A stretch of 32,041 nt of DNA from an uncultured Syntrophobacterales bacterium (GTDB lineage Bacteria > Desulfobacterota > Syntrophia > Syntrophales > UBA5619), in contig CAIYSL010000031.1 in assembly GCA_903928915.1 (NCBI GenBank), positions 1-32,041 of the forward strand. The letters are read 5' to 3'. The notes beneath the pieces are model-generated. The model ran no database searches and was not told the DNA's origin. It saw nothing but the letters and a program-made list of their open reading frames with translations. The number at the start of each line of letters is the position of its first letter. Position 1 is the first letter of the stretch. Made by a program: the position numbers and the translations under genes. Below, one piece after another: positions 9,837 to 21,770 of this stretch.

Positions 9837-10571
9837 ATGGCGAGGATAAATCAGGAGAAATGCGTCGGATGCAAGATCTGTCAGACCTACTGCACTGTCG
9901 ATGCCATCGGCTACGTCGATTCCGCGGAGAAGTGTGAGATAGACCCCGGCCTCTGCGTCGAGTGTTACGTCTGTCTGCGGCAGAAGGTCTGCCCCAAGGA
10001 CGCCATCGAGCCCGTAGAATTGGACAGTTTCTACAAACAGTTTCAGCATGTCATCAGTGATCCCGTGGAGAATCACGGAGTCACCGGGGTTACCGGACGC
10101 GGGACCGAGGAGGTCAAGACCAACGATGTCTCCGGCAGGGTCAGGAGGGGCGAGGTCGGCGTCTGTATCGACATGGGCCGACCCGGGATGGGCGTTTACC
10201 TCCGGGACGCGGAAAAGGTGGCCATGGCCTGCGCAAAGGCCGGCGTAGAGCTGGCCCCGGCGGAACATACCCCGCTCGCGGCTCTGATGACCGACCTTGC
10301 GACGGGTAAACTGGCGGATGATTGCCTCAATTTCCGACTCCTGTCGGTCATCATCGAGGGCAAGTGCCGGGAGGGGGAACTCTCCGGGGTGTTGAAGGCC
10401 CTCAAAACGGTCGAAAAGGAGATCGACACGGTCTTTTCGCTCGGACTGATCCTGCGGGTCGACGAAAACGGCATGAATCCGACGCTCGGCTGCCTGGACG
10501 AGCTGGGCATCGCGCAACCCCATCGCGGCAAGGTAAACGTGGGGCTCGGAAAACCATTATCACTGGCATAG
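9837..10571 (+). CDS. Dicluster ferredoxin fused to unknown domain, copy 1
   Basis: 244 residues from ATG 9837 (GAAAGGAG just upstream; the longer in-frame extension to 9582 crosses the promoter and is not protein-like). Residues 1-57 form a 2[4Fe-4S] ferredoxin: Cys9-x2-Cys12-x2-Cys15-x3-Cys19, then Cys40-x2-Cys43-x2-Cys46-x5-Cys52-Pro. Residues about 75-244 are a domain I do not recognise, marked by GRGTEEVKTNDVSGR, VGVCIDMGRPGMGVYLRD and C-terminal KVNVGLGKP. The same architecture recurs at 18584. The next gene starts 9 bases after the stop and also has a paralogue beside the second copy, so the two form a module. Likely cytoplasmic electron transfer to or from the partner; the reaction is unknown. 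Confidence 0.85.
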   Translation: MARINQEKCVGCKICQTYCTVDAIGYVDSAEKCEIDPGLCVECYVCLRQKVCPKDAIEPVELDSFYKQFQHVISDPVENHGVTGVTGRGTEEVKTNDVSGRVRRGEVGVCIDMGRPGMGVYLRDAEKVAMACAKAGVELAPAEHTPLAALMTDLATGKLADDCLNFRLLSVIIEGKCREGELSGVLKALKTVEKEIDTVFSLGLILRVDENGMNPTLGCLDELGIAQPHRGKVNVGLGKPLSLA

Positions 10572-10580
10572 GGGGACGTG

Positions 10581-11207
10581 ATGACACACTCACTGCACCG
10601 CAGCGGCGACATCGACTCGCAGAAGCGGGATTTCAACTGGTTCATGTACCAGACCAAGGGCGTGAACGACAAGAACATCAAGGACAAGGCCCTCGAATTC
10701 ATCGCTGCCGCCGAGGCTGTCGGTTCGGAAAACTGGGGGGACGTCAAGACCGGTCCGATCACTCAGTACCCCTCCGCAGAGATCCGGGAGAAGATCTCGG
10801 ACAAATCCCGCATCCGCGGCGTGTTCACGCGCCGGGAGCAGGTCGTGGCCTTCCTGAAACGGATCAAGGAGAAGGACCTCGGGCAGTCCGTGGTGATCAC
10901 CGGAATCCTCTCCGAGGTGCTTCCCGCCTGCAAAGAGGCCGGCGTTACCCCCCATTCGGTCAACTACTCCCTCGGTGTTTGGGGAAAGAAGGACAACCTC
11001 CCCGACGACATAACCCTGTCGATCACCACGATGTGCGGGCACCACATGATCCCGCCCAAATTCGTCAAGCACGTGATGAAGCAGGTGGAGAAGCGAAAGC
11101 TCACGCCGGAGGCAGGGGCCATAAAACTGGCCAACTTCTGCTATTGCGGCATCTTCAACCAGGTGCGGTGCGCGGACATCATCCGGAAGGCGACGAATGC
11201 CCTTTGA
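10581..11207 (+). CDS. Unknown Cys/His-motif protein ('MTHSLHR'), copy 1
   Basis: 208 residues from ATG 10581, chosen over GTG 10578 because the paralogue at 19325 starts with the same MTHSLHR. I do not recognise the family. Shared marks with the paralogue are the N-terminus MTHSLHR, SLGVWGKKDNLPD near the middle, TTMCGHHM, and a C-terminal CYCGIFNQVRCADI. The conserved TTMCGH and CxCGI elements could ligate a metal or Fe-S cluster supplied or reduced by the adjoining ferredoxin-fusion protein. No signal peptide or membrane segment is seen. The 3' end overlaps the start of the GntR gene by 11 bases, so regulator and enzyme are translationally coupled. Confidence 0.75.
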   Translation: MTHSLHRSGDIDSQKRDFNWFMYQTKGVNDKNIKDKALEFIAAAEAVGSENWGDVKTGPITQYPSAEIREKISDKSRIRGVFTRREQVVAFLKRIKEKDLGQSVVITGILSEVLPACKEAGVTPHSVNYSLGVWGKKDNLPDDITLSITTMCGHHMIPPKFVKHVMKQVEKRKLTPEAGAIKLANFCYCGIFNQVRCADIIRKATNAL

Positions 11208-11988
11208 GAAGGTCGGCCAGACCAAGTTCAAGAAGAAGAGCTCCTTCATCGCCGATCAGATCCTGCTGATGATCGCTTCGGGCCGGTACAAGGCCGGCAG
11301 CAGACTCCCGTCGGAGCGGATCATCACGGAACAGATGGGGGTGAGCCGGCCGTCCCTGCGCGAAGCGATCAGCGCCTTGCAGATCGTCGGCATTCTCGAA
11401 AGCCGTCCCGGCGACGGCACCTACGTCACGAACCCCGATGCCACCGACGACATACGGCACCGGGTCGTCTCGGTGCTCGAAGACAGCGACAGCCCCTTCG
11501 AGAACATGCAGGCGCGCAAGGCCCTGGAGATCGGCTCCGTGCGTCTCGCCGTTTCCGTCGCCGCCGACGCCGACCTCGCTGCCCTGCGGAGCGCCTGGGA
11601 AGAGAAATGCCAGCGGGGACGCCGGGGGGACCTCGACGAGTACCTCGCCTACGGAAAGGAGTTCCATCTGGCCATCGCCCGGGCCACCAAGAACCGGGTC
11701 ATCGAGGGGATCATGGAAAAGCTCCTCGACATGACGATCCAGCCCCTCTGGACCAGCATGCGGCGGAACTATTTTCTGAAAGACCCCTCCCGGATCGAAT
11801 TGATGCTCGACGTGCATGACCGGATCGTGCAGGCGATCTGCGGCCGCGATGCGGATCGGGCGATCCGGGAATTGGAGACCCATTACGACATCCAGATCGA
11901 GCAGATCTACGAACAGAACGACGATAGCGCCGCCGAGCAGACTAGCGGCGGGGCGAATCGGGAGCACGACGTTCCGCAAAGGAGGTGA
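11197..11988 (+). CDS. GntR-family regulator, FCD (FadR-like) subfamily
   Basis: 263 residues. The N-terminal winged helix (about 15-85) contains AGSRLPSERIITEQMGVSRP and ends in the wing SRPGDGTYV, typical of GntR. Residues about 100-235 form the all-helical FCD ligand domain, including EFHLAIARATKN and a DVHDRIVQAICGRDADRAI segment with the His/Asp positions used for metal and carboxylate binding in this subfamily. Such proteins usually repress catabolic operons and respond to organic acids. It lies between the first ferredoxin module and the tct genes and overlaps the upstream gene by 11 bases, so it is the likely local regulator of the cluster. Its operator is not established. Confidence 0.92.
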   Translation: MPFEKVGQTKFKKKSSFIADQILLMIASGRYKAGSRLPSERIITEQMGVSRPSLREAISALQIVGILESRPGDGTYVTNPDATDDIRHRVVSVLEDSDSPFENMQARKALEIGSVRLAVSVAADADLAALRSAWEEKCQRGRRGDLDEYLAYGKEFHLAIARATKNRVIEGIMEKLLDMTIQPLWTSMRRNYFLKDPSRIELMLDVHDRIVQAICGRDADRAIRELETHYDIQIEQIYEQNDDSAAEQTSGGANREHDVPQRR

Positions 11989-12100: not shown

Positions 12101-13081
12101 ATGAAGAGATTCGGTAAGTTGTCACTGTTGTTCGCGGTCGCTTTCTGTATCGCTCTGGGGGCGGCAAACGCCATCGCTGCCAGCAAATACCCGGAAAAAC
12201 CGATCACCGTCATCATCCACGCCGGCGCCGGCGGAGGGAGCGACATCTTCGCGCGGACCATGGCCGCGGCGATCGAAAAGGAGAGAATCCTTCCGCAGCC
12301 GCTGGTGGTGGAGAACAAGCCGGGCGGAAGCGGCGGCATTGCCTTTGCCTATGTAGCGGGCAAGAAAAAGGACCCCTACTTCCTCGTCACCGCGGTCACC
12401 AGCTTCCTGACCACGCCGCTGATGGGCCTCACCCCGGTGGGACTCAAGGACTTCACCCCGGTGGCCAACTTCGCCTTTGACGAGTACATGCTGATGGTCA
12501 ATACAAAGTCCAAATTCAAGACGGCGAAAGAGGCGATCGACTTCGCCAGGGCCAACCCGAAGAAGGTCACTGTCGGCGGGACCCAGCTCGGCTCCTCCGA
12601 TTCCATCTGCACCTACCTGATCGAGAAGGCAGCCGGCGTCCAGCTCAACTACGTCGTGTTCAACGGCGGCGGCGAGGTCAACGCGGCCCTCCTGGGCGGG
12701 CATATCGACATGGCGGTCGCCAACCCCGGCGAGGCGCTCGAGCTGTACAAGTCCGGCAAGGTCCGCATCCTTGGTGTCTTCCAGGAAAAGCGCCTGGTCG
12801 GCGCCCCCGATATCCCCACCCTCAAGGAGCAGGGAATTAACGCGATCTACGTCCAGAACCGCGGCCTCTGCGCCCCGGCAGGCATTCCCGCCGACGCGCT
12901 CAAGACCCTGGAGGAGGCCTTCCTGAAATACACCAAGACCGAGGCCTTCAAGAAGTACTGCAAGGACAACATGCTAACCGAGGCCTACATGGACTCCGCG
13001 GCCTTCGGAAAGTTCCTCGAGGAGTGGAACGGCAAGTACGCCGTCATCCTCAAGGATATGAACCTGATCAAGAAGAAGTAA
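12101..13081 (+). CDS. tctC: TTT transporter solute-binding protein TctC (Bug family)
   Basis: 326 residues from ATG 12101, preceded by GGAGGAGG. A Sec signal peptide (about 1-27, ending NAIAA) sends it to the periplasm. The mature protein shows the Bug/TctC pattern: YPEKPITVIIHAGAGGGSD at the N-terminus, VVENKPGGSGGIAF, a GTQLGSSDSICTYLIEK ligand loop and FNGGGEVNAALLGGHIDMAV. It captures a carboxylate for the TctAB permease encoded next. The ligand is not predictable; family members bind citrate, tricarballylate, aromatic acids and others. It starts 112 bases after the GntR gene and is separated from tctB by a hairpin that could keep its transcript more abundant. Confidence 0.93.
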   Translation: MKRFGKLSLLFAVAFCIALGAANAIAASKYPEKPITVIIHAGAGGGSDIFARTMAAAIEKERILPQPLVVENKPGGSGGIAFAYVAGKKKDPYFLVTAVTSFLTTPLMGLTPVGLKDFTPVANFAFDEYMLMVNTKSKFKTAKEAIDFARANPKKVTVGGTQLGSSDSICTYLIEKAAGVQLNYVVFNGGGEVNAALLGGHIDMAVANPGEALELYKSGKVRILGVFQEKRLVGAPDIPTLKEQGINAIYVQNRGLCAPAGIPADALKTLEEAFLKYTKTEAFKKYCKDNMLTEAYMDSAAFGKFLEEWNGKYAVILKDMNLIKKK

Positions 13082-13107
13082 TCGTCCCAGAAGCCTGTCC
13101 GGGAGCC

Positions 13108-13135
13108 GGGCCGCGGACCTCAGCGTCCCCGGCCC
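13108..13135 (+). terminator. Intercistronic hairpin between tctC and tctB
   Basis: GGGCCG (13108-13113) and GGAC (13115-13118) pair with GTCC (13125-13128) and CGGCCC (13130-13135) around a six-base loop, with a C-C mismatch. Such hairpins after binding-protein genes commonly give partial termination or 3'-end protection and raise the binding protein over its permease. Confidence 0.5.
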
Positions 13136-13170
13136 GCTTCCGGGCGGATCTTTAGGAAGCGAGGCGGCTG

Positions 13171-13632
13171 ATGAAAAAGGCAGAAATGATAACCGGCATA
13201 GTGCTTCTCGTGCTGTCCGGCCTGGTGATCTGGGGAGCGCTGCAGATGCCTCCTTCGGCTTCCTTCGGCCCGGGCGCGGGATTTCTCCCCTTCTGGCTGG
13301 GGGTGCTGCTGACGGTGCTGGCCACGATCCTCTTCGTGAGCGCCTGGAAGCGGCCGGCGAACGACAAGGAGGCCGAGCCTGTTTTCCCGGGAAAGCAGGC
13401 GCTGTTCGCGATTGCCTCGGTCCTGGTCGGGGTCGCGGTCTACATCTCCCTGATCGATACGCTCGGCTATCTGGTGGACACGTTCCTGCTCATAGTCTTT
13501 CTGATGAAGGTCGTGGAACGGGAGAAGTGGCCGCTCACGCTGACCATTTCCGTAGTCACGACCGGTACCCTGTACGTGGTCTTCCAGGTCCTGCTGAAGA
13601 TAACACTACCCTCGAGTACGTTCGGGTTTTAG
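13171..13632 (+). CDS. tctB: TTT transporter small membrane subunit TctB
   Basis: 153 residues with four hydrophobic segments, the standard TctB size and layout. The first segment (MITGIVLLVLSGLVIWGAL) is followed by SFGPGAGFLPFWLGVLLTVL, a recurrent TctB feature, and the C-terminal pair ends in VLLKITLPSSTFGF, close to the family's LP.G termini. It is an inner-membrane partner of TctA; its exact role in transport is not well defined in the family. It is placed between tctC and tctA with a 16-base gap to tctA, in the usual C-B-A order. Confidence 0.9.
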   Translation: MKKAEMITGIVLLVLSGLVIWGALQMPPSASFGPGAGFLPFWLGVLLTVLATILFVSAWKRPANDKEAEPVFPGKQALFAIASVLVGVAVYISLIDTLGYLVDTFLLIVFLMKVVEREKWPLTLTISVVTTGTLYVVFQVLLKITLPSSTFGF

Positions 13633-13648
13633 GGGAACGAGGACTCAT

Positions 13649-15163
13649 ATGCTGAATATATTCGACAATTTGATTCTTGGGTTTCAGGTCGCGACCTCTT
13701 GGGAAAACATCCTGTTTTGCTTCATCGGGGTGCTGATCGGAACGCTCATCGGCGTGCTTCCCGGGATCGGCCCCACCACCGGGATCGCGATCCTGATCCC
13801 GATCACCTTCGGAATGAGCGCGACCACGGCGATCATCACGCTCGCCGGGATCTACTACGGCGCCATGTACGGGGGATCGACTACGTCGATCCTGATCAAC
13901 CTGCCCGGCGAGTCCGCCTCGGTCATGACCATGCTCGACGGCTACCAGATGGCCAAGAAGGGCAGGCCCGGGCCGGCGCTCGGCATGGCCGCGCTGGCCT
14001 CCTTCATCGCCGGGACCGTGGCGATCGTCCTGCTGACCCTGATCGCCCCCCCGCTGGCGAGCTATGCCGTCTCCTTCGGGCCTCCCGAGTACTTCGCCCT
14101 CACCTTCATGGGCCTCACCCTGGTGTCGGCACTGGGCGGCGACAAGCCGCTGAAGGCGTACATCAGCGCAGTGGTGGGACTGATGATCTCCTGCGTGGGC
14201 ATCGACGCCATCAGCGGCGTCGCCCGGTTCACCATGGGCAGCATGAGCCTGCTCGACGGCGTCGGGTTCATCGGCATGGCCATCGGTCTGTTCGCCATCT
14301 CCGAGATCCTGGTGAACATCGAGGAGCCGATCAAGCAGGTCTTCTCGGACGCCAAACTGGGTATCCGGAGCCTCTTTCCGAACCTTCAGGACTGGAAGGA
14401 CTCCTTCGGGGCCCTCTGGCGCGGCTCGCTGCTCGGGTTCTTCATCGGCACGCTGCCCGGGTCCGGGGCGACGCTCTGCTCCTTCATCGCCTACGCGGTG
14501 GAGAAGAAGCTCAGCGCGCATCCCGAGAAGTTCGGCACGGGCGTCATCGAGGGGGTGGCTGCTCCGGAAGGGGCGAACAACGCGGCCGCCGGCGGGGCCA
14601 TGGTGCCGCTGCTCACCCTGGGCATCCCCTCGGGGGGCGCCACGGCGGTGATGCTGGGCGCGCTGATGATCCACGGCCTGCGCCCCGGCCCGATGCTCTT
14701 TTCCACCAACCCCGAGTTCGTCTGGGGGCTGATCGCGAGCATGTACATCGGGAACGTCTTTCTAGTCATCCTGAACATGCCGCTGGTGGGGCTCTGGGTG
14801 AAGCTGCTGAAGGTCCCCTACAAGGTCCTGATGCCGCTGATCCTGACGATCTCGGCGACAGGCATCTTCGCCACGGACAACAACGTGTTCGACATGTGGG
14901 TCATGTTCTTCTTCGGCATGGTCGGGTATGTGATGCGGAAGCTCGACTTCCCTGCCGCGCCGATGGTGCTGGCCTTGGTCATCGGGCGGCTGGTGGAGAT
15001 GTCGCTCAGGCAGTCGCTGACGATATCGCACGGTGACATCAGCATCTTCTTCACCCGGCCGATCTCCGGGGTGTTGACGGTCGTGGCGCTTCTCTCCCTG
15101 TTCTCCCCCCTCTTCCGGATCCTCTGGTCGAGGTACAAGGCGCCGGGCAAGAGCCTTGCGTAG
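13649..15163 (+). CDS. tctA: TTT transporter large permease TctA
   Basis: 504 residues, the usual TctA length, with about 11-12 membrane segments. The two inverted-repeat signature loops are intact: GVLPGIGPTTGIAILIP with YYGAMYGGSTTSILINLPGE in the first half, and GTLPGSGATLCSFIAYAVEK with PEGANNAAAGGAMVPLLTLG in the second. It is the channel-forming inner-membrane subunit that imports the carboxylate delivered by TctC, driven by the ion gradient. It ends 117 bases before the four-cluster ferredoxin gene, with a GC hairpin in between, so downstream expression may be reduced but not necessarily separate. Confidence 0.95.
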   Translation: MLNIFDNLILGFQVATSWENILFCFIGVLIGTLIGVLPGIGPTTGIAILIPITFGMSATTAIITLAGIYYGAMYGGSTTSILINLPGESASVMTMLDGYQMAKKGRPGPALGMAALASFIAGTVAIVLLTLIAPPLASYAVSFGPPEYFALTFMGLTLVSALGGDKPLKAYISAVVGLMISCVGIDAISGVARFTMGSMSLLDGVGFIGMAIGLFAISEILVNIEEPIKQVFSDAKLGIRSLFPNLQDWKDSFGALWRGSLLGFFIGTLPGSGATLCSFIAYAVEKKLSAHPEKFGTGVIEGVAAPEGANNAAAGGAMVPLLTLGIPSGGATAVMLGALMIHGLRPGPMLFSTNPEFVWGLIASMYIGNVFLVILNMPLVGLWVKLLKVPYKVLMPLILTISATGIFATDNNVFDMWVMFFFGMVGYVMRKLDFPAAPMVLALVIGRLVEMSLRQSLTISHGDISIFFTRPISGVLTVVALLSLFSPLFRILWSRYKAPGKSLA

Positions 15164-15280: not shown

Positions 15281-15817
15281 ATGAAAGTCATCGGAGTTCA
15301 TACGGACCGCTGCACGGGCTGCAAGACCTGCGAGCTGTACTGCGGCGCAGAGAGGGGAAGCGAGGGAAAGACCCTTCTCAAGGCAGTCCAGGAAACCCCC
15401 TCCCCCCAGCCGCGCGTCCGCGTCGAGGGGAGCCGGGATGCAGCGTTCCCGCTCCAGTGCCGTCACTGCCTGCAGGCCCCCTGCCTGGACGCCTGCCTCA
15501 CCGGCGCACTCGGCCGGGACGAGGCGAGCGGCATGGTGATCATCCGGGAGGATCGCTGCATCGGGTGCTGGACCTGTACGGCCTTCTGCCCCTACGGGGT
15601 GATCTCGCCTTCCCCGGAGCAAAAGATCGCGATCAAGTGCGATCGCTGTCTGCACCGGGAAGAGCCGACCTGCGTGGACGTGTGTCCGACCGGGGCCCTC
15701 GCATTGGTAGAGATCGAGGCAATCGACGACCTTGCCCGGGAAAAGCGCCGCACCGCAGCGGCAGCGGCGACAGCAGCGGGCAACGGCGGAATGGTAATTC
15801 TGGACCTGGGGAGATAA
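15281..15817 (+). CDS. Four-cluster ferredoxin, CooF/HycB type
   Basis: 178 residues with four cysteine groups sufficient for four [4Fe-4S] clusters: RCTGCKTCELYC (Cys11, 14, 17, 21), QCRHCLQAPCLDAC, RCIGCWTCTAFCPYG and CDRCLHREEPTCVDVCPTGA. This pattern is shared by CooF, HycB, HydN and DmsB electron-transfer subunits. It has no Tat signal, so it should be cytoplasmic. The neighbours, a CODH-like protein 39 bases downstream and an FAD/NAD(P) oxidoreductase after that, reproduce the cooF-cooS-FNOR arrangement, which favours a CooF-like role of wiring a redox protein to a flavin enzyme. AGGAG at 15268-15272 precedes ATG 15281. Confidence 0.88.
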   Translation: MKVIGVHTDRCTGCKTCELYCGAERGSEGKTLLKAVQETPSPQPRVRVEGSRDAAFPLQCRHCLQAPCLDACLTGALGRDEASGMVIIREDRCIGCWTCTAFCPYGVISPSPEQKIAIKCDRCLHREEPTCVDVCPTGALALVEIEAIDDLAREKRRTAAAAATAAGNGGMVILDLGR

Positions 15818-15856: not shown

Positions 15857-17305
15857 ATGGAAACGATCCATTTCAAGACAGTCGACCCGGTGAGCCAGGA
15901 ACTGCTCCGCGGGGCCTCCCGGCGGGGCGTCGAGCTCAACTGGGAGCGGTACGAAAAACAGCAGCCGCAGGACGGGTTCCTGCGCCTCGGGCTTTCCTGC
16001 CCCTACGGATGCATGCAGGGCCCCTGCCGGATCGACCCCTACGGACGGGGAGCCCAGCGGGGCATCTGCGGGTTGGACCGCGACGCCATGGCAGCCGCGT
16101 TCCTCCTGCGGCTTACCCTGCAGGGACTCTGGGAAGGGTTGGACCTCTCCGGCTCCCCCCGGCGCGGAATCGAGATTGCCTGGCCCGCCCCCCTCGAAAA
16201 GGCGGCCGCTGCGGCCCAGAGCACAATCGGCGGCGCCCCCCTTGCGGCCGCCGATATCGGCGAGAGCGCCGCGCTCCTCTCCCGCCCCTCGGCGGACCCG
16301 GAGACCCTCGTCCGCCAGGCCATCCGCCTGGGACTGCTCGCCATTGGCAGCGCCAAACGGGGGAAGTCTGCCGCTACGCTGGGATACCGCGTGGGCTACG
16401 GCCTTTTGGCCAAGGAGGCGGTCACGATCGCGGTCGCGGGCAGGATTCCCGAGACCCTGGCAAAGGCGCTCCTGAAGGCGGCCGCCGGCAGGAAAAACCC
16501 GAAAGTGCGGCTGGTTTCGCTCGGGGACTGGCTCCCCGCCGGGAAGAGCTTTCTCCCGATCGTCTGCACATCCGGCGAGGCGGAGACCGTGGTTGCGTCG
16601 GGCAGGATCGACCTTCTGCTTGCCGGACCGGGCTGCGACCCGGGGCTTGCGACGCTCGCGGCAAGCCTGAACATCCCCGTGCTGAAGGGGGAACAGGCGT
16701 CCGCGGAGGAAGAACTCTTCGCCCAGGCCCGCAGGGCCTTCGACCGTCGCGATCCGGGTTCCTTCGCCCCGGACGCCGCCCTGGTCGGCACGGGCAGCGC
16801 CGCGCTCGGCAGCGCGGAGGTCCAGGCCGGCCTGAAGAGCGCCTCCTCGTCCAAGATCGCCCTTCTGGGCGGCTCCGACACCCTCTTCCAATCCCTCGGC
16901 CATCTTCCCGTGGAATTGGCCAAGGCGCTCATCGGCGAAGGACACGCCATCGCCTCCTGGGGAGACGCAGCCCTCTGGATGGCAAAACAGGAGATCCCCG
17001 CAACGACCCTCGCCCCGCAGGACGGTCCGCTTGCCGCCGTCGCCAGTCTGGCCGCCACGGGTTCGTTGACCAGCCTCACGGGCATCTGCTTTACGGGCCT
17101 CAATGCCTGCCGCGATTTGACCCTCGCGTTGGGGCTCGCCGCCCTCGGGCTGAAGGTCGCCGTGGCCGTACCCCTGCCCCTCTGGGGGAGCGCGGCGGTC
17201 CGCACTGCCCTGGGGACGATCCTGGCCGCCACGGGGGGGAGCCTGACGCATTACGACCACCCGGCCCAGGGCGAGGAACTCCTGGCATGGTTCGTCCGGG
17301 CGTAG
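15857..17305 (+). CDS. CODH-like protein lacking active-site ligands
   Basis: 482 residues against about 640 for CooS. The N-terminus carries a CooS-type B-cluster motif, Cys48-x3-Cys52-x4-Cys57-x13-Cys71 (CPYGCMQGPCRIDPYG, RGICG). VTIAVAGRIPETLAKALLKA (189-208) matches the CooS segment with the C-cluster histidine, but HGH is replaced by AGR (194-196). Cys260 in GPGC lies where CooS has DxQC, whereas the later GGCN and GC positions read LLGGSD (336-341) and ASWGDA (366-371), without cysteine. The D-cluster cysteines before Cys48 are also missing. It belongs to the Ni-CODH/hybrid-cluster fold by pattern, yet should not bind a normal Ni-Fe C-cluster. It may be an electron-transfer or new-reaction derivative. 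Alignment to CooS was by eye. Confidence 0.75.
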   Translation: METIHFKTVDPVSQELLRGASRRGVELNWERYEKQQPQDGFLRLGLSCPYGCMQGPCRIDPYGRGAQRGICGLDRDAMAAAFLLRLTLQGLWEGLDLSGSPRRGIEIAWPAPLEKAAAAAQSTIGGAPLAAADIGESAALLSRPSADPETLVRQAIRLGLLAIGSAKRGKSAATLGYRVGYGLLAKEAVTIAVAGRIPETLAKALLKAAAGRKNPKVRLVSLGDWLPAGKSFLPIVCTSGEAETVVASGRIDLLLAGPGCDPGLATLAASLNIPVLKGEQASAEEELFAQARRAFDRRDPGSFAPDAALVGTGSAALGSAEVQAGLKSASSSKIALLGGSDTLFQSLGHLPVELAKALIGEGHAIASWGDAALWMAKQEIPATTLAPQDGPLAAVASLAATGSLTSLTGICFTGLNACRDLTLALGLAALGLKVAVAVPLPLWGSAAVRTALGTILAATGGSLTHYDHPAQGEELLAWFVRA

Positions 17306-17325: not shown

Positions 17326-18570
17326 ATGGACATCCTGATCGTCGGCGGCGGCGTTGCCGGTTTCACGGCCGCCGCGGCCTGCCGAAACGCCTGGCCCGAC
17401 CGGGCCGTGACCCTGATCGACGCGGAGAATGAAGTCGGGTACTACCGGACGCTTCTTCCCCAATTCATGGTCGGGACCCTCCCGGAAACGAAGCTCTTCT
17501 TCCCCCCCGGGGATCCGGACCCGCTCTTCACGGTGCGGACCGGGGTCCGGGTGAAATCCCTCGACCGCGCGGGGCAACTGCTCCAGCTCGCCACGGGAGA
17601 GTCCCTCGGGTACGACCGGCTGATCCTCGCCCACGGCGGCGAGGCATACCTGCCGGGAATCCTCGCCGGTCCGCCGGCCCGGGGCATCTTTCCCGTCCGC
17701 GACCTGACCACGGCGCGGGCTGCGAAGGCCTGGCTCGTCGACCACCGGAAGGTGATCGTCTTCGGCGGCTCCCTCGTGGCGGTCAAGACCGCGGTCCACC
17801 TCCGCCAGGCGGGGTTCGAGGTCTCGCTGGTGGTGCGGCGCGGGCATATCCTCCTGCGCGCCCTCTCTTCTGAGTCGGCGGCGCTGGTCGAAGACCACCT
17901 GCGCCGACAGGGAGTCAGGATCGTCGTGAACGCGCCCCTGGAGGATATCCGCATCACGCAGGGCACCATTGCCGCGATCAAGGCGGGCGGGGAGTGGGTC
18001 GAGGGGAACAGCCTCATCGTCGCCGCGGGGGTGGTCCCCGACACCGCGTTCGTGGAGGGGACGGGCCTGCTCACCGACGGACAGCTCGTCGTTTCCGAGG
18101 CGATGCAGACCTCCGACCGCCGGGTATTCGCCGCGGGCGACGTGGCCGCGATCGGCGAGCGCCGGCTCAGTCCGAACACCTGGCCGCAGGCGGTCTCCCA
18201 GGCAAGGACTGCGGCCGCGAACCTGTACCGGACCGCTCCCATTCCCCTGCGCGACCCGGCGGGAATCAACGCCATGGAACTCGACGGTCTTGCCATGGTC
18301 ATCCTCGGGCCGCCGGTAGCGGGAGCGGAGACGATATCCTTCGGAAACGCCGCAGCCGGGATCAGGCGCGAACTCTTCCTCCGCGGAGGGAAACCGGTGG
18401 GGGGCGCGCTGATCGGCGACATCTCCGCCGCCGGAACGCTCCATGCCCTGCTCTCCTCCGGCAGGACCATGACCGCAGCCGAACTCCGGCTGCTGGCAGC
18501 GAGGTCCCGGACCGTCATCCCCTTCCCGGAACGGGCGGGGAGAAGAACAGCATACATTCTGAAAGGATGA
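17326..18570 (+). CDS. FAD-dependent NAD(P)H oxidoreductase (FNOR-like)
   Basis: 414 residues from ATG 17326, preceded by GAAGGAGAGG. It has the two-dinucleotide-fold plan: FAD site VGGGVAGFTAA at 6-16, NAD(P) site VFGGSLVAVKTAVHL at 145-159, and the second FAD motif RRVFAAGDVAAI. There is no redox CxxC, so it resembles rubredoxin/ferredoxin-NAD reductases and NADH oxidases, including the FNOR proteins encoded beside CooS-CooF in several anaerobes. It lies 20 bases after the CODH-like gene and 13 bases before the second ferredoxin module. The probable role is hydride exchange between NAD(P) and the iron-sulfur chain of this cluster. Direction and partner are inferred from context. Confidence 0.88.
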   Translation: MDILIVGGGVAGFTAAAACRNAWPDRAVTLIDAENEVGYYRTLLPQFMVGTLPETKLFFPPGDPDPLFTVRTGVRVKSLDRAGQLLQLATGESLGYDRLILAHGGEAYLPGILAGPPARGIFPVRDLTTARAAKAWLVDHRKVIVFGGSLVAVKTAVHLRQAGFEVSLVVRRGHILLRALSSESAALVEDHLRRQGVRIVVNAPLEDIRITQGTIAAIKAGGEWVEGNSLIVAAGVVPDTAFVEGTGLLTDGQLVVSEAMQTSDRRVFAAGDVAAIGERRLSPNTWPQAVSQARTAAANLYRTAPIPLRDPAGINAMELDGLAMVILGPPVAGAETISFGNAAAGIRRELFLRGGKPVGGALIGDISAAGTLHALLSSGRTMTAAELRLLAARSRTVIPFPERAGRRTAYILKG

Positions 18571-18583
18571 GGTTACCGAGCCT

Positions 18584-19309
18584 ATGATGATCCGAGAAGA
18601 ACTCTGCGTGGGCTGCGGCCGCTGCCAGCCCTACTGCCCGACCGTTGCGATCCGCTACGACGGCCTGAAGAGCATCATCGACCAGGACATCTGCTACGAA
18701 TGCAGCACCTGCCTTAGGGCGGCCCACTGCCCCGTCGACGCCATCTGCGAATCGCCGAACGTGTTCGACCACCCGCGCGACCTGCGTCGCCACTTCAGCG
18801 ACCCGGCCTCGCGCCACGTGGCAACGGGCATCGAGGGCCGCGGGACCGAGGAGACCAAGTCCGGCGACGTCACGCGCCGCCTGCCCCCCGGGAAGGTGGG
18901 TATCGCCATCGAGGTCGGCCGCCCCAACCTCGGCATGTCGCTTAGGGACGTCCAGAAGATCACCCGGGCCATCGCCCGCGCCGGCATTCACAAGATCGAG
19001 CCCTGCAACCCGATCCACTCGATGCTGGCCGACGAAGCCACGGGAGACCTCAAGCCCGAGTTGCTCGGAGAGCGGGTCCTCTCGGCGATCATCGAGATCG
19101 AGATGGAGAAGGGCCAGATCCGGAGCATCCTCAAGACCCTCAAGGAGGTCGCCCGGGAGGTGGACAGCGTCTTCTGTATCGACTGCTTCATGGTCGTCGA
19201 ACCCGGGATCGAGATCCCCGGAGACGTACTGGAAGAAATCCGCGCGGAAGGCCTGAGCTGGCGGCCGAACGCCAAGATCAACATGGGGCTCGGACGGGCC
19301 TGGGAATAG
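18584..19309 (+). CDS. Dicluster ferredoxin fused to unknown domain, copy 2
   Basis: 241 residues from ATG 18584; an adjacent ATG at 18587 is equally possible. It is a paralogue of the protein at 9837. Two [4Fe-4S] motifs occupy the N-terminus (CVGCGRCQPYC, then CYECSTCLRAAHCPVDAI). The unknown domain repeats the marks GRGTEETKSGDVTRR, VGIAIEVGRPNLGMSLRD and the C-terminal KINMGLGRA. Copy 2 carries an additional CIDC pair (VFCIDCFMVVEPG) where copy 1 has no cysteine. It is placed 13 bases after the flavoprotein and 15 bases before the second Cys/His protein, which supports electron delivery from NAD(P)H through the flavoprotein to this module. Chemistry unknown. Confidence 0.85.
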   Translation: MMIREELCVGCGRCQPYCPTVAIRYDGLKSIIDQDICYECSTCLRAAHCPVDAICESPNVFDHPRDLRRHFSDPASRHVATGIEGRGTEETKSGDVTRRLPPGKVGIAIEVGRPNLGMSLRDVQKITRAIARAGIHKIEPCNPIHSMLADEATGDLKPELLGERVLSAIIEIEMEKGQIRSILKTLKEVAREVDSVFCIDCFMVVEPGIEIPGDVLEEIRAEGLSWRPNAKINMGLGRAWE

Positions 19310-19324
19310 GAGAGGGAGCGCATC

Positions 19325-19975
19325 ATGACACACAGTCTGCACCGGGAAGGAACTCTGGAATCGCTGGAGAAGGACTACGTCCTGTTCGTCTATCCGGCCC
19401 GGGGGTTCAACTACAAGGGAAGCGCCCCGAAGGTACGGCGCCTCGTCGAGCTTCTGTACCTGGCCGGACCGGTCAACATGTGCGTGACCACGTTGCGCCG
19501 CAACATGTACAGCGGCGTCAAGCCCGAAGAGGTGCTGGAGAGCATCAAGGTCGAAGGGGCCCGCGTTTTCAGCGTCTTCGACAGCCGGGAGAAGGTCAAG
19601 GACGCCCTGATCCGGATCAAACAGGCGGACGAGGGCATCTCGATCATGGTCAGCGGCGTCACCGACAGCGTCCGCGAGCTCTCCGCGGAGCTGGGCATCG
19701 AACCCTACATGATCAACCTCTCCCTCGGCGTCCACGGGCGGACCGACCTCCTGCCGCCGCCCGACATCCGGGAATTCACCACCATGTGCGGCCACGGCGT
19801 CGTCTCGCCCAACCTGGTCCGCGACGTCATCCGCCGCGTCCGCGCGGGGAAGGTAACCGAGTGGGACGGCAGCGTCATCATCGCCGAGCCCTGCGCCTGC
19901 GGGATTTACAACCCCGTCCGCTCCGCGGAGCTGCTCAGGGAAAAGGCGCCGCTGTACGCGGTCGACCGCTGGTAG
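19325..19975 (+). CDS. Unknown Cys/His-motif protein ('MTHSLHR'), copy 2
   Basis: 216 residues, a paralogue of the protein at 10581. Conserved marks are MTHSLHR at the start, NLSLGVHGRTDLLPP, TTMCGHGVVSPNLV, and CACGIYNPVRSAEL near the C-terminus. The first halves have diverged: this copy has DYVLFVYPARGFNYKG and a Cys at VNMCVTT that copy 1 lacks. The intact C and H residues in both copies suggest a shared metal or cluster site. It follows copy 2 of the ferredoxin-fusion gene by 15 bases and precedes the dehydrogenase gene by 4 bases. I do not recognise the family and assign no reaction. Confidence 0.75.
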   Translation: MTHSLHREGTLESLEKDYVLFVYPARGFNYKGSAPKVRRLVELLYLAGPVNMCVTTLRRNMYSGVKPEEVLESIKVEGARVFSVFDSREKVKDALIRIKQADEGISIMVSGVTDSVRELSAELGIEPYMINLSLGVHGRTDLLPPPDIREFTTMCGHGVVSPNLVRDVIRRVRAGKVTEWDGSVIIAEPCACGIYNPVRSAELLREKAPLYAVDRW

Positions 19976-19979
19976 GGCA

Positions 19980-20873
19980 ATGGATCGGATGCTGCGACTG
20001 GGGTTCATCGGGTTCGGAGGCGCGGGGTACGGCCTGGCGAAGGGGCTTCGCCAGGCAGGTCTCGCCGAGGTCCATTTCTTCGACCGGATGCAGGAGACAC
20101 CCCCCTTTGCGGAGGTGATCGGCCGCCATAGCGCCGAGCTCGGCGCCGTGCGGGCAGCCACGATCGCCGAGCTCCTCGCCCGGACCGATTGCGTCATCTC
20201 CTGCGTCACCGGTTCCATGGCCGTGTCCGTGGCCGAAGAGGCGGCGCCGCACCTTACGCCCGCCCACCTGTACGCCGACGTGAATACCGCCTCGCCGCAA
20301 GTCAAGAAGCAGGCCGCCGCGATCGTCGAGCGGGCTGGGGCCAGCTTCACGGATGCGGCGATGATGGGGGCGATCCCCGCCTTCCTCCACCGCGTGCCGA
20401 TCCTCGCCTCGGGGAGCGGCGCCTCCCGGTTCCGCGACGCCCTGACCCCCTACGGGATGAACATCCGGGCGATCGGCGAGGAGCCGGGCCAGGCCTCCGC
20501 CATAAAGCTCTGCCGCAGCATCTTCACGAAGGGGCTCCTGTCGCTGCTGATCGAGCTGCTGACGGCGACGCACCGCCTGGGTGTCGATGATACGGTCCTG
20601 GCCTCGATCGCCGAATCGCTGGACGGAACACCCTTTACGGAAACGGCGCGGCTGCAGATGACCAAGGGGGTCGTCAACGCCGAACGGATGGCCCACGAGA
20701 TGGAGGAGGTGGTTGCCACCCTGGAGGAGCTCGCCGTGCCTGCGGCCATGTCCCGGGCATCCCGGGAGACGCTCCTCAGGTGTGCCGGGCTCGGCCTGCG
20801 CGAACGCCTCGGCGGCGAGATACCCTCCACCCTCGCCGAGGTCCTTGCCGCGCTGGAGAACCCGCCGGGTTAG
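19980..20873 (+). CDS. NAD(P)-dependent dehydrogenase, DUF1932-type C-terminus
   Basis: 297 residues. The N-terminus is a Rossmann fold with GFIGFGGAGYGLAKGL, as in the 6-phosphogluconate/3-hydroxyisobutyrate dehydrogenase superfamily, followed by YADVNTASPQVKKQAA and a TDAAMMGAIP segment typical of it. The C-terminal helices (SAIKLCRSIFTKGLLSLLIE, with the presumed catalytic Lys in SAIK) match the DUF1932 type. These enzymes oxidise 3-hydroxy acids or reduce the semialdehydes; the substrate here is unknown. ATG 19980 is 4 bases after the previous stop; ATG 19989 is an alternative start. It is the last gene of the tightly spaced run and a plausible step in metabolism of the imported acid. Confidence 0.85.
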   Translation: MDRMLRLGFIGFGGAGYGLAKGLRQAGLAEVHFFDRMQETPPFAEVIGRHSAELGAVRAATIAELLARTDCVISCVTGSMAVSVAEEAAPHLTPAHLYADVNTASPQVKKQAAAIVERAGASFTDAAMMGAIPAFLHRVPILASGSGASRFRDALTPYGMNIRAIGEEPGQASAIKLCRSIFTKGLLSLLIELLTATHRLGVDDTVLASIAESLDGTPFTETARLQMTKGVVNAERMAHEMEEVVATLEELAVPAAMSRASRETLLRCAGLGLRERLGGEIPSTLAEVLAALENPPG

Positions 20874-21000: not shown

Positions 21001-21029
21001 TACTTTCAGACAAGTCCGACTGGGTGCGC

Positions 21030-21770
21030 ATGGATATCGACCTCACCACGGTGACGGTGCTTACCATCCTGTTCGTCTCCTCGCTGGTGCGCGCCATCTT
21101 CGGGTTCGGCAACGCCCTGATCGCCATGCCGCTTTTGGCAATGACGGCACTGGGCATGCAGGCGGCCACCCCGATCGTTGCCCTGATCGCCACGGTGATG
21201 TCCTTCGTGATCATCGTCAAGGATTGGAGGATCATCGACCTGAGAGGCACCTGGCGGCTCCTGGCCGCCACCGTCTTCGGGATACCCCTGGGGCTGCTCC
21301 TGCTGACCGGCCCCTTTGAAAAGGCGGGCAAGCTCCTCCTGGCAACCGTGATCGTGGGGTTTTCGCTGTACAGCCTGCTTCGGCCCCGGATTGCTGCCTT
21401 CACCCAGGAGTGGGCCGCCTACCCCTTCGGGTTCATCGCCGGCATCCTGGGCAGCGCCTACAACTCCAACGGCCCCCCGATCGTGATCTACGGCACCATC
21501 CGGAGATGGTCTCCGGACCGTTTCCGTGCGAATCTCCAGGGGTATTTCTTTCCGGCCAACCTCATCATCATCGCCGGGCACGCCATGGGAGGGCTCTGGA
21601 CGCCGACGGTGGGGTGGTATTTCCTGCTCTCCCTGCCGATCATCCTCCTGTCGATCCTGCTCGGGAACGCGCTCGCCCGCCTGATACCCCAGGGACAGTT
21701 CGATCGGCTCGTCCACATCATCCTGGTCATGATCGGAACGCTGCTGTTCGTGCGCACCATCGCGGCCTGA
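21030..21770 (+). CDS. TauE/SafE family anion permease
   Basis: 246 residues from ATG 21030 (GTG 21024 is in frame; neither has a strong ribosome site). About eight membrane segments in two halves match the TauE/SafE family (formerly DUF81): IFGFGNALIAMPLLAM near residues 22-37 and GSAYNSNGPPIVIYGTIRR with RANLQGYFFPANL in the second half. Family members are linked to export or uptake of sulfonates, sulfite and organic anions such as sulfoacetate. It has a separate AT-rich promoter with an operator-like dyad and follows the metabolic cluster by 156 bases, so it may export a product of that pathway. This is inference from position. Confidence 0.88.
   Translation: MDIDLTTVTVLTILFVSSLVRAIFGFGNALIAMPLLAMTALGMQAATPIVALIATVMSFVIIVKDWRIIDLRGTWRLLAATVFGIPLGLLLLTGPFEKAGKLLLATVIVGFSLYSLLRPRIAAFTQEWAAYPFGFIAGILGSAYNSNGPPIVIYGTIRRWSPDRFRANLQGYFFPANLIIIAGHAMGGLWTPTVGWYFLLSLPIILLSILLGNALARLIPQGQFDRLVHIILVMIGTLLFVRTIAA

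Follow-up and report, generated by a model that had tools for sequence, protein, structure and literature searches.

A CODH-like protein without C-cluster ligands, a proposed electron relay in a conserved five-gene redox cassette of Syntrophales

The window analyzed here is a stretch of 32,041 nucleotides from an uncultured Syntrophobacterales bacterium (contig CAIYSL010000031.1). At 15857–17305 on the forward strand it encodes a 482-aa CODH-like protein, P0001, which keeps the cysteines of the B-cluster and has lost the D- and C-cluster ligands as well as the acid-base residues. Judged by its sequence, P0001 belongs to the CODH fold superfamily but is not a Ni-CODH. With modest confidence, we favor the reading that it is a catalytically dead CODH that has been kept as a [4Fe-4S] electron relay in a multi-subunit redox complex.

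The P0001 open reading frame runs intact from ATG to stop, and its product is ~155 residues shorter than CooS-type CODHs (~636–639 aa). A profile of P0001 and its relatives is homologous to ChCODH-II over the entire chain (E 6e-69), with profile positions 4–491 aligning to ChCODH-II residues 4–627. An AlphaFold2 model of P0001 (mean pLDDT 82.8, pTM 0.86, with the B-cluster loop as its weakest part) retains the Rossmann-type core and aligns to solved CooS structures over ~460 residues with a Z of ~29. The model matches the class III hybrid cluster protein with a Z of 22.8, and the sequence profile favors CODH. An earlier note on this DNA had described an intact frame for a CODH-fold protein about 160 residues short, and frame, fold and shortening all agree with these data; homology to a different fold, which that note had named as evidence against its reading, is rejected by the profile match and the structural alignment. 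The match of P0001 to the NCBIfam model TIGR01702 (CooS) is limited to residues 9–90 and scores 58 bits against a cutoff of 478, and the Pfam Prismane score is slightly below the gathering score. Automated annotation could therefore miss or mislabel P0001. The same genome has a separate canonical CooS sequence, accompanied by a CooC-like gene, and thus P0001 is not the sole CODH homologue there.

Metal-cluster ligands were mapped by alignment to ChCODH-II, whose ligand identities and numbering we take to be established, and family conservation was assessed over 13 aligned sequences. The B-cluster cysteines C48, C51, C56 and C70 of ChCODH-II correspond to C48, C52, C57 and C71 of P0001 and are invariant in 13/13 sequences; P0001 has an additional residue between its first and second cysteine (CPYGC). 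At the D-cluster, C39 is replaced by D39 (Asp in 13/13) and C47 by S47 (Ser in 12/13, Cys in one orthologue). P0001 has no D-cluster CxxC, and the cysteines of type I, II and III D-clusters are all missing.

All six C-cluster ligands, the histidine and five cysteines, are replaced or deleted in P0001. The HGH of ChCODH-II (259–261) aligns with A194-G195-R196, so that the ligand H261 becomes R196; this position is R, Q or H across the 13 sequences and is replaced in most. C295 becomes S221, C333 falls on a gap or a G, C446 (GCNN) becomes S340 (A, S or V in orthologues), C476 (GC) becomes D370 within an invariant WGD, and C526 is deleted together with its loop. The equivalents of C446, C476 and C526 are replaced or deleted in every one of the 13 sequences, and the acid-base pair H93/K563 is also lost in P0001. 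Residues D341, D370, S221 and C237 are invariant in the 13 sequences. A few other cysteines are left in P0001, and among these only C237, which is specific to P0001's type, is invariant; none of them occupies the position of a ChCODH-II C-cluster ligand. Most C-cluster-less sequences of types 1–3 (types 2 and 3 are described below) carry Asp or Glu at the position of C476, possibly a preferred replacement. The earlier note had claimed a B-cluster motif, AGR in place of HGH at 194–196, replaced cysteines at the GGCN and GC positions and absent D-cluster cysteines, and the alignment bears out each of these. The contrary outcome that it had named, C-cluster ligands conserved elsewhere in the chain, is rejected, as the alignment found none. 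From these replacements, P0001 is predicted to be unable to assemble either the Ni-Fe C-cluster or the D-cluster, in which case it should not oxidize CO.

P0001 belongs to a cassette of five genes, all on the forward strand. In order, these are a CooF/HydN-like polyferredoxin subunit (15281–15817; 178 aa, several [4Fe-4S] motifs), P0001 (from 15857), an FNOR-type FAD/NAD(P) oxidoreductase (17326–18570; Pyr_redox_2, 414 aa), a 2[4Fe-4S] ferredoxin with a ~180-aa C-terminal domain without a Pfam match (18584–19309; 241 aa) and a protein that we call ‘THSL’ (19325–19975; 216 aa, with invariant T2-H3, H6-R7, C155-G-H157 and C190-x-C192). Intergenic gaps are 4–39 bases from CooF through an NAD-binding 6-phosphogluconate/3-hydroxyisobutyrate dehydrogenase-like protein with DUF1932 (19980–20873, forward), which ends the tight run after a 4-base gap. 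Associated with the cassette, and on the same strand, are genes for a TctC-TctB-TctA tripartite tricarboxylate-type transporter (12101–15163), with a GntR/FCD regulator upstream of them (11197–11988).

The full five-gene set is found in the window and at L012–L014, L016, L069–L072 and L075, while the cassettes at L015, L017, L018 and L073 are cut by contig ends. CooF lies immediately upstream of the CODH-like gene in every locus with upstream sequence, and ferredoxin and THSL lie downstream in every P0001-type cassette with downstream sequence. FNOR directly follows the CODH-like gene in all loci that have downstream sequence, the one exception being L074, which has no FNOR between the CODH-like and ferredoxin genes. 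The CooF-like and flavoprotein neighbors pointed out in the earlier note are thus real and conserved; the ferredoxin/THSL genes, the paralogous cassettes and the repeated C-cluster loss go beyond it. The gene set is kept in Syntrophales, in other family-level groups of the phylum and in a Rhodospirillales MAG. The dehydrogenase/DUF1932 gene is conserved in the Syntrophales loci L012, L014 and L075. TctABC adjoins most P0001-type cassettes, as does the GntR regulator in Syntrophales, and the importer usually adjoining the cassette is of the TTT or TRAP type.

Ferredoxin/THSL pairs also occur outside these cassettes. A second pair in the window (9837–10571 and 10578–11207, forward) follows a thiolase gene, is 42% and 34% identical to the pair at 18584/19325 and has no CODH-like gene of its own. 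Others are found alone (L121, at G000:C33, in the genome of P0001) or beside a ThDP lyase and CoA-transferases (L120, L122). Genes for TauE/SafE-type exporters lie near ferredoxin/THSL in two loci (window 21024–21770, called by Pfam match; L115:8947–9756, called by sequence judgement only), which may hint at an exported product.

The THSL protein itself matched no Pfam or NCBIfam family, and its matches to PDB sequences were at chance level only. A fold search gave no clear match; it returned only a widespread ferredoxin-like arrangement for the N-terminal half (Z <8). Across 14 THSL members, H3, H6, R7, C155, H157, C190 and C192 are invariant, and the invariant His and Cys suggest a metal site. 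We infer from these residues, in a protein without a clear fold match, that THSL may be an enzyme. The genes beside the cassettes vary (a BhcA-like aminotransferase, D-threonate kinase/PdxA-like genes, a ThDP lyase with CoA-transferases, an IlvD-like gene), and because of this variation a reading of the substrate from the neighbors failed.

Orthologues of P0001 share 46–65% identity and come from Syntrophaceae/Syntrophales MAGs, other family-level groups of the phylum (f40, f47) and one Rhodospirillales MAG; all their named sources are MAGs. A further family-level group of the phylum (f92) holds only a P0001-type fragment. The P0001 family is under purifying selection, with a pairwise dN/dS, a check proposed in the earlier note, of 0.17–0.33 in all pairs measured, and the frames of full-length orthologues are intact. 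Residues 1–90, the B-cluster domain, have a mean pairwise identity of 80%, versus 35–64% for the rest of the chain. Decay of P0001 is rejected by the dN/dS values. Together with the identity of the B-cluster segment and the retention of the gene set across groups, they support the suggestion of the earlier note that the protein was probably repurposed rather than decayed. The Rhodospirillales locus, L016, is the only P0001-type occurrence found outside the window's phylum and could reflect horizontal transfer or mis-binning. Among 385 genomes of the class of that MAG, no THSL was found beyond the MAG itself and one partial match, and the plasmids searched gave only one canonical cooS N-terminal match and no THSL.

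The gene set also occurs in other arrangements that house other types of CODH-like protein, most of them beside TTT or TRAP transporters. These are type 2 (561–583 aa; L114, L115 and, in the genome of P0001, L076), type 3 (497–536 aa; L077, L080, L081, L117) and a mini-CooS-like type (L078, the same gene as L032). A CODH-derived form of ~300 aa keeps the B/D-cluster segment and the chain edges without most of the C-cluster domains, and it adjoins CooF and FNOR without THSL (L079; L011/L082, again in the genome of P0001). The CooF/FNOR cluster of this form (L011/L082 at G000:C129; L079) includes an Old-Yellow-Enzyme-like gene. At L076 (G000:C76:67000–79259), a 578-aa type 2 protein that has lost the C-cluster lies beside a BhcA-like aminotransferase and TctABC.

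Within type 2, three members (L115, L135, L137; clade G-like) keep the C-cluster ligands and eight have lost them. The three retain H261, C333, C446, C476, C526 and K563, and they carry Thr in place of C295, Tyr in place of H93 and a D-cluster motif of type III, a combination published as the G-1 signature (PMC6344411). The eight lack C333, C446, C476, C526 and K563, although the adjacent residues stay alike. In type 2 the cassette thus surrounds a C-cluster-competent protein at L115 and C-cluster-less ones at L114 and L076; it outlasts the C-cluster. An unrooted tree of the CODH-like types was calculated from an alignment in which the eight columns of C-cluster and acid-base residues had been masked. 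It places the C-cluster-less type 2 proteins together with the G-like ones, gives the division within type 2 good support (99/97 and 99/91) and requires two state changes, a count to be read with the long type 3 branches and the odd composition of some rows in mind. A single clade of all C-cluster-less sequences, and with it a single loss for all types, is rejected with the ligand columns masked (p-AU 0.0003). The C-cluster has therefore been lost at least twice within the same cassette, since we consider it implausible that five ligands were regained. L115, L135 and L137 are candidate active CODHs linked to ferredoxin/THSL, with the full cassette seen in L115.

We propose that P0001 descends from a CooS-type Ni-CODH, binds one [4Fe-4S] cluster at the B-cluster site and has been kept because its B-cluster domain would relay electrons within a complex. 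Gene order suggests that this complex comprises CooF (polyferredoxin), the CODH-like protein (B-cluster), FNOR (FAD, NAD(P)H) and the ferredoxin/THSL pair. The pair would be the likely substrate-transforming unit, its substrate being an organic acid brought in by the neighboring TTT/TRAP transporter, and P0001 would carry electrons between it and NAD(P)(H) via CooF/FNOR. For CODH gene clusters, CooF together with FNOR has been proposed to provide the coupling to NAD(P)H (PMC6344411). A relay is supported by the invariance of the B-cluster cysteines despite loss of the C-cluster ligands, by the B-cluster domain being by far the most conserved part of the chain, and by full-length CODH homology and fold combined with purifying selection. 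The constancy of the flanking genes, the occurrence of the type 2 cassette with and without the C-cluster after at least two losses, the ~300-aa form that still adjoins CooF and FNOR, and the separate canonical CooS in the genome also support it. Counting against a relay, loss of the D-cluster removes the usual electron exit path, so the geometry of the relay must differ.

The main rival explanation holds that P0001 is itself an enzyme, its old C-cluster pocket having been converted, with D341, D370, S221 and C237, into a new site for catalysis or for binding a ligand (a mononuclear metal, an organic acid or a nucleotide). The invariance of these residues argues for such a site and against a pure relay, which would need neither the polar D341, D370 and S221 at the former C-site nor C237. 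The retained Rossmann-type core fits as well, as does the Asp or Glu found at the C476 position in three types. However, conservation is centered on the B-cluster domain and not on the surroundings of the pocket, C237 is confined to P0001's type, and the ~300-aa form has dropped most pocket domains yet adjoins CooF/FNOR. We consider a rebuilt pocket unlikely. A regulatory or structural scaffold, in which P0001 would be a redox-sensing or assembly subunit joining CooF/FNOR to the ferredoxin/THSL modules through a structural or sensory B-cluster, seems to us quite improbable. Reduced CODH-like forms do occur among redox partners, and redox sensing has been proposed as a role of CODHs from clades C and D that show little or no activity (PMC13056359), but no DNA-binding or signalling domain was found, and neighbors that are electron carriers favor transfer over sensing.

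Two other explanations have very little to recommend them. The loss of ligands and the shortened chain could mark a decaying cooS pseudogene, which we regard as extremely unlikely given the low dN/dS, the intact frames of full-length orthologues and the invariance of the replacing residues D39, D341 and D370. Equally hard to credit is a working Ni-CODH or hybrid-cluster protein that takes its ligands from elsewhere in the chain; the fold is kept and a few other cysteines remain, but the equivalents of C446, C476 and C526 are replaced or deleted throughout, H261 is replaced in most sequences, only C237 among the other cysteines is invariant, and the C526 loop is absent.

The proposed relay can be set against known systems. 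With CooS-type Ni,Fe-CODHs (ChCODH-II, R. rubrum CooS; TIGR01702), P0001 shares homology and fold over its full length, the B-cluster cysteines and the CooF and FNOR neighbors; in contrast to them, it lacks the C-cluster ligands, the D-cluster and the acid-base residues, is ~155 residues shorter and scores far lower with TIGR01702 (58 vs 478). Clade G and mini-CooS Ni-CODHs (PMC6344411; PMC8776680, citing Techtmann 2012) resemble it in small size and CooF/FNOR context, and its intact relatives in equivalent cassettes include L115, L135 and L137, which carry the G-1 signature, and L031/L032 (482–510 aa), which keep the C-cluster Cys and His. Mini-CooS has a complete metal-cluster motif (PMC8776680) and clade G keeps the C-cluster ligands, whereas the 482-aa P0001 lacks the motif and has none of these ligands. 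ChCODH-V (CooS-V, clade D) and the class III hybrid cluster protein, with the solved structures 7b7q and 7e0l between them, belong, like P0001, to the Prismane/CODH superfamily. CooS-V is not known to oxidize CO (PMC13056359), and neither is the class III hybrid cluster protein. Both carry a hybrid or modified cluster, whereas P0001 lacks the superfamily cysteine positions that hold it, those equivalent to C446, C476 and C526 being S/A/V, D and deleted; the fold match of P0001 to the class III protein is also weaker than that to CODH (Z 22.8 vs 29). Finally, CODH/CooF/FNOR gene clusters such as that of Geobacter sulfurreducens (PMC6344411) place CooF and FNOR beside a CooS-fold protein, but here the CODH is predicted to be inactive, and the set constantly or frequently includes ferredoxin/THSL and an importer for organic acids.

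Our literature search found no description of a C-cluster-less CODH-like cassette family. Because CODH surveys removed sequences with missing or mutated ligands (PMC8776680, PMC6344411, PMC11338639), they could have overlooked a conserved family of CODH-derived pseudoenzymes in a redox cassette. A cooS-like match in an anaerobe can be mistaken for a sign of CO metabolism. The THSL/ferredoxin pair is an uncharacterized candidate enzyme. More tentatively, and at somewhat less than an even chance, the C-cluster-less CODH family may be a relay dedicated to ferredoxin/THSL, which would be a new two-component metalloenzyme of anaerobe organic-acid metabolism, and the CODH scaffold would have lost the Ni-Fe site at least twice in that role. 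The type 2 lineage, in which close relatives with and without the C-cluster share the same gene set, makes the role of a CODH without its active site directly testable.
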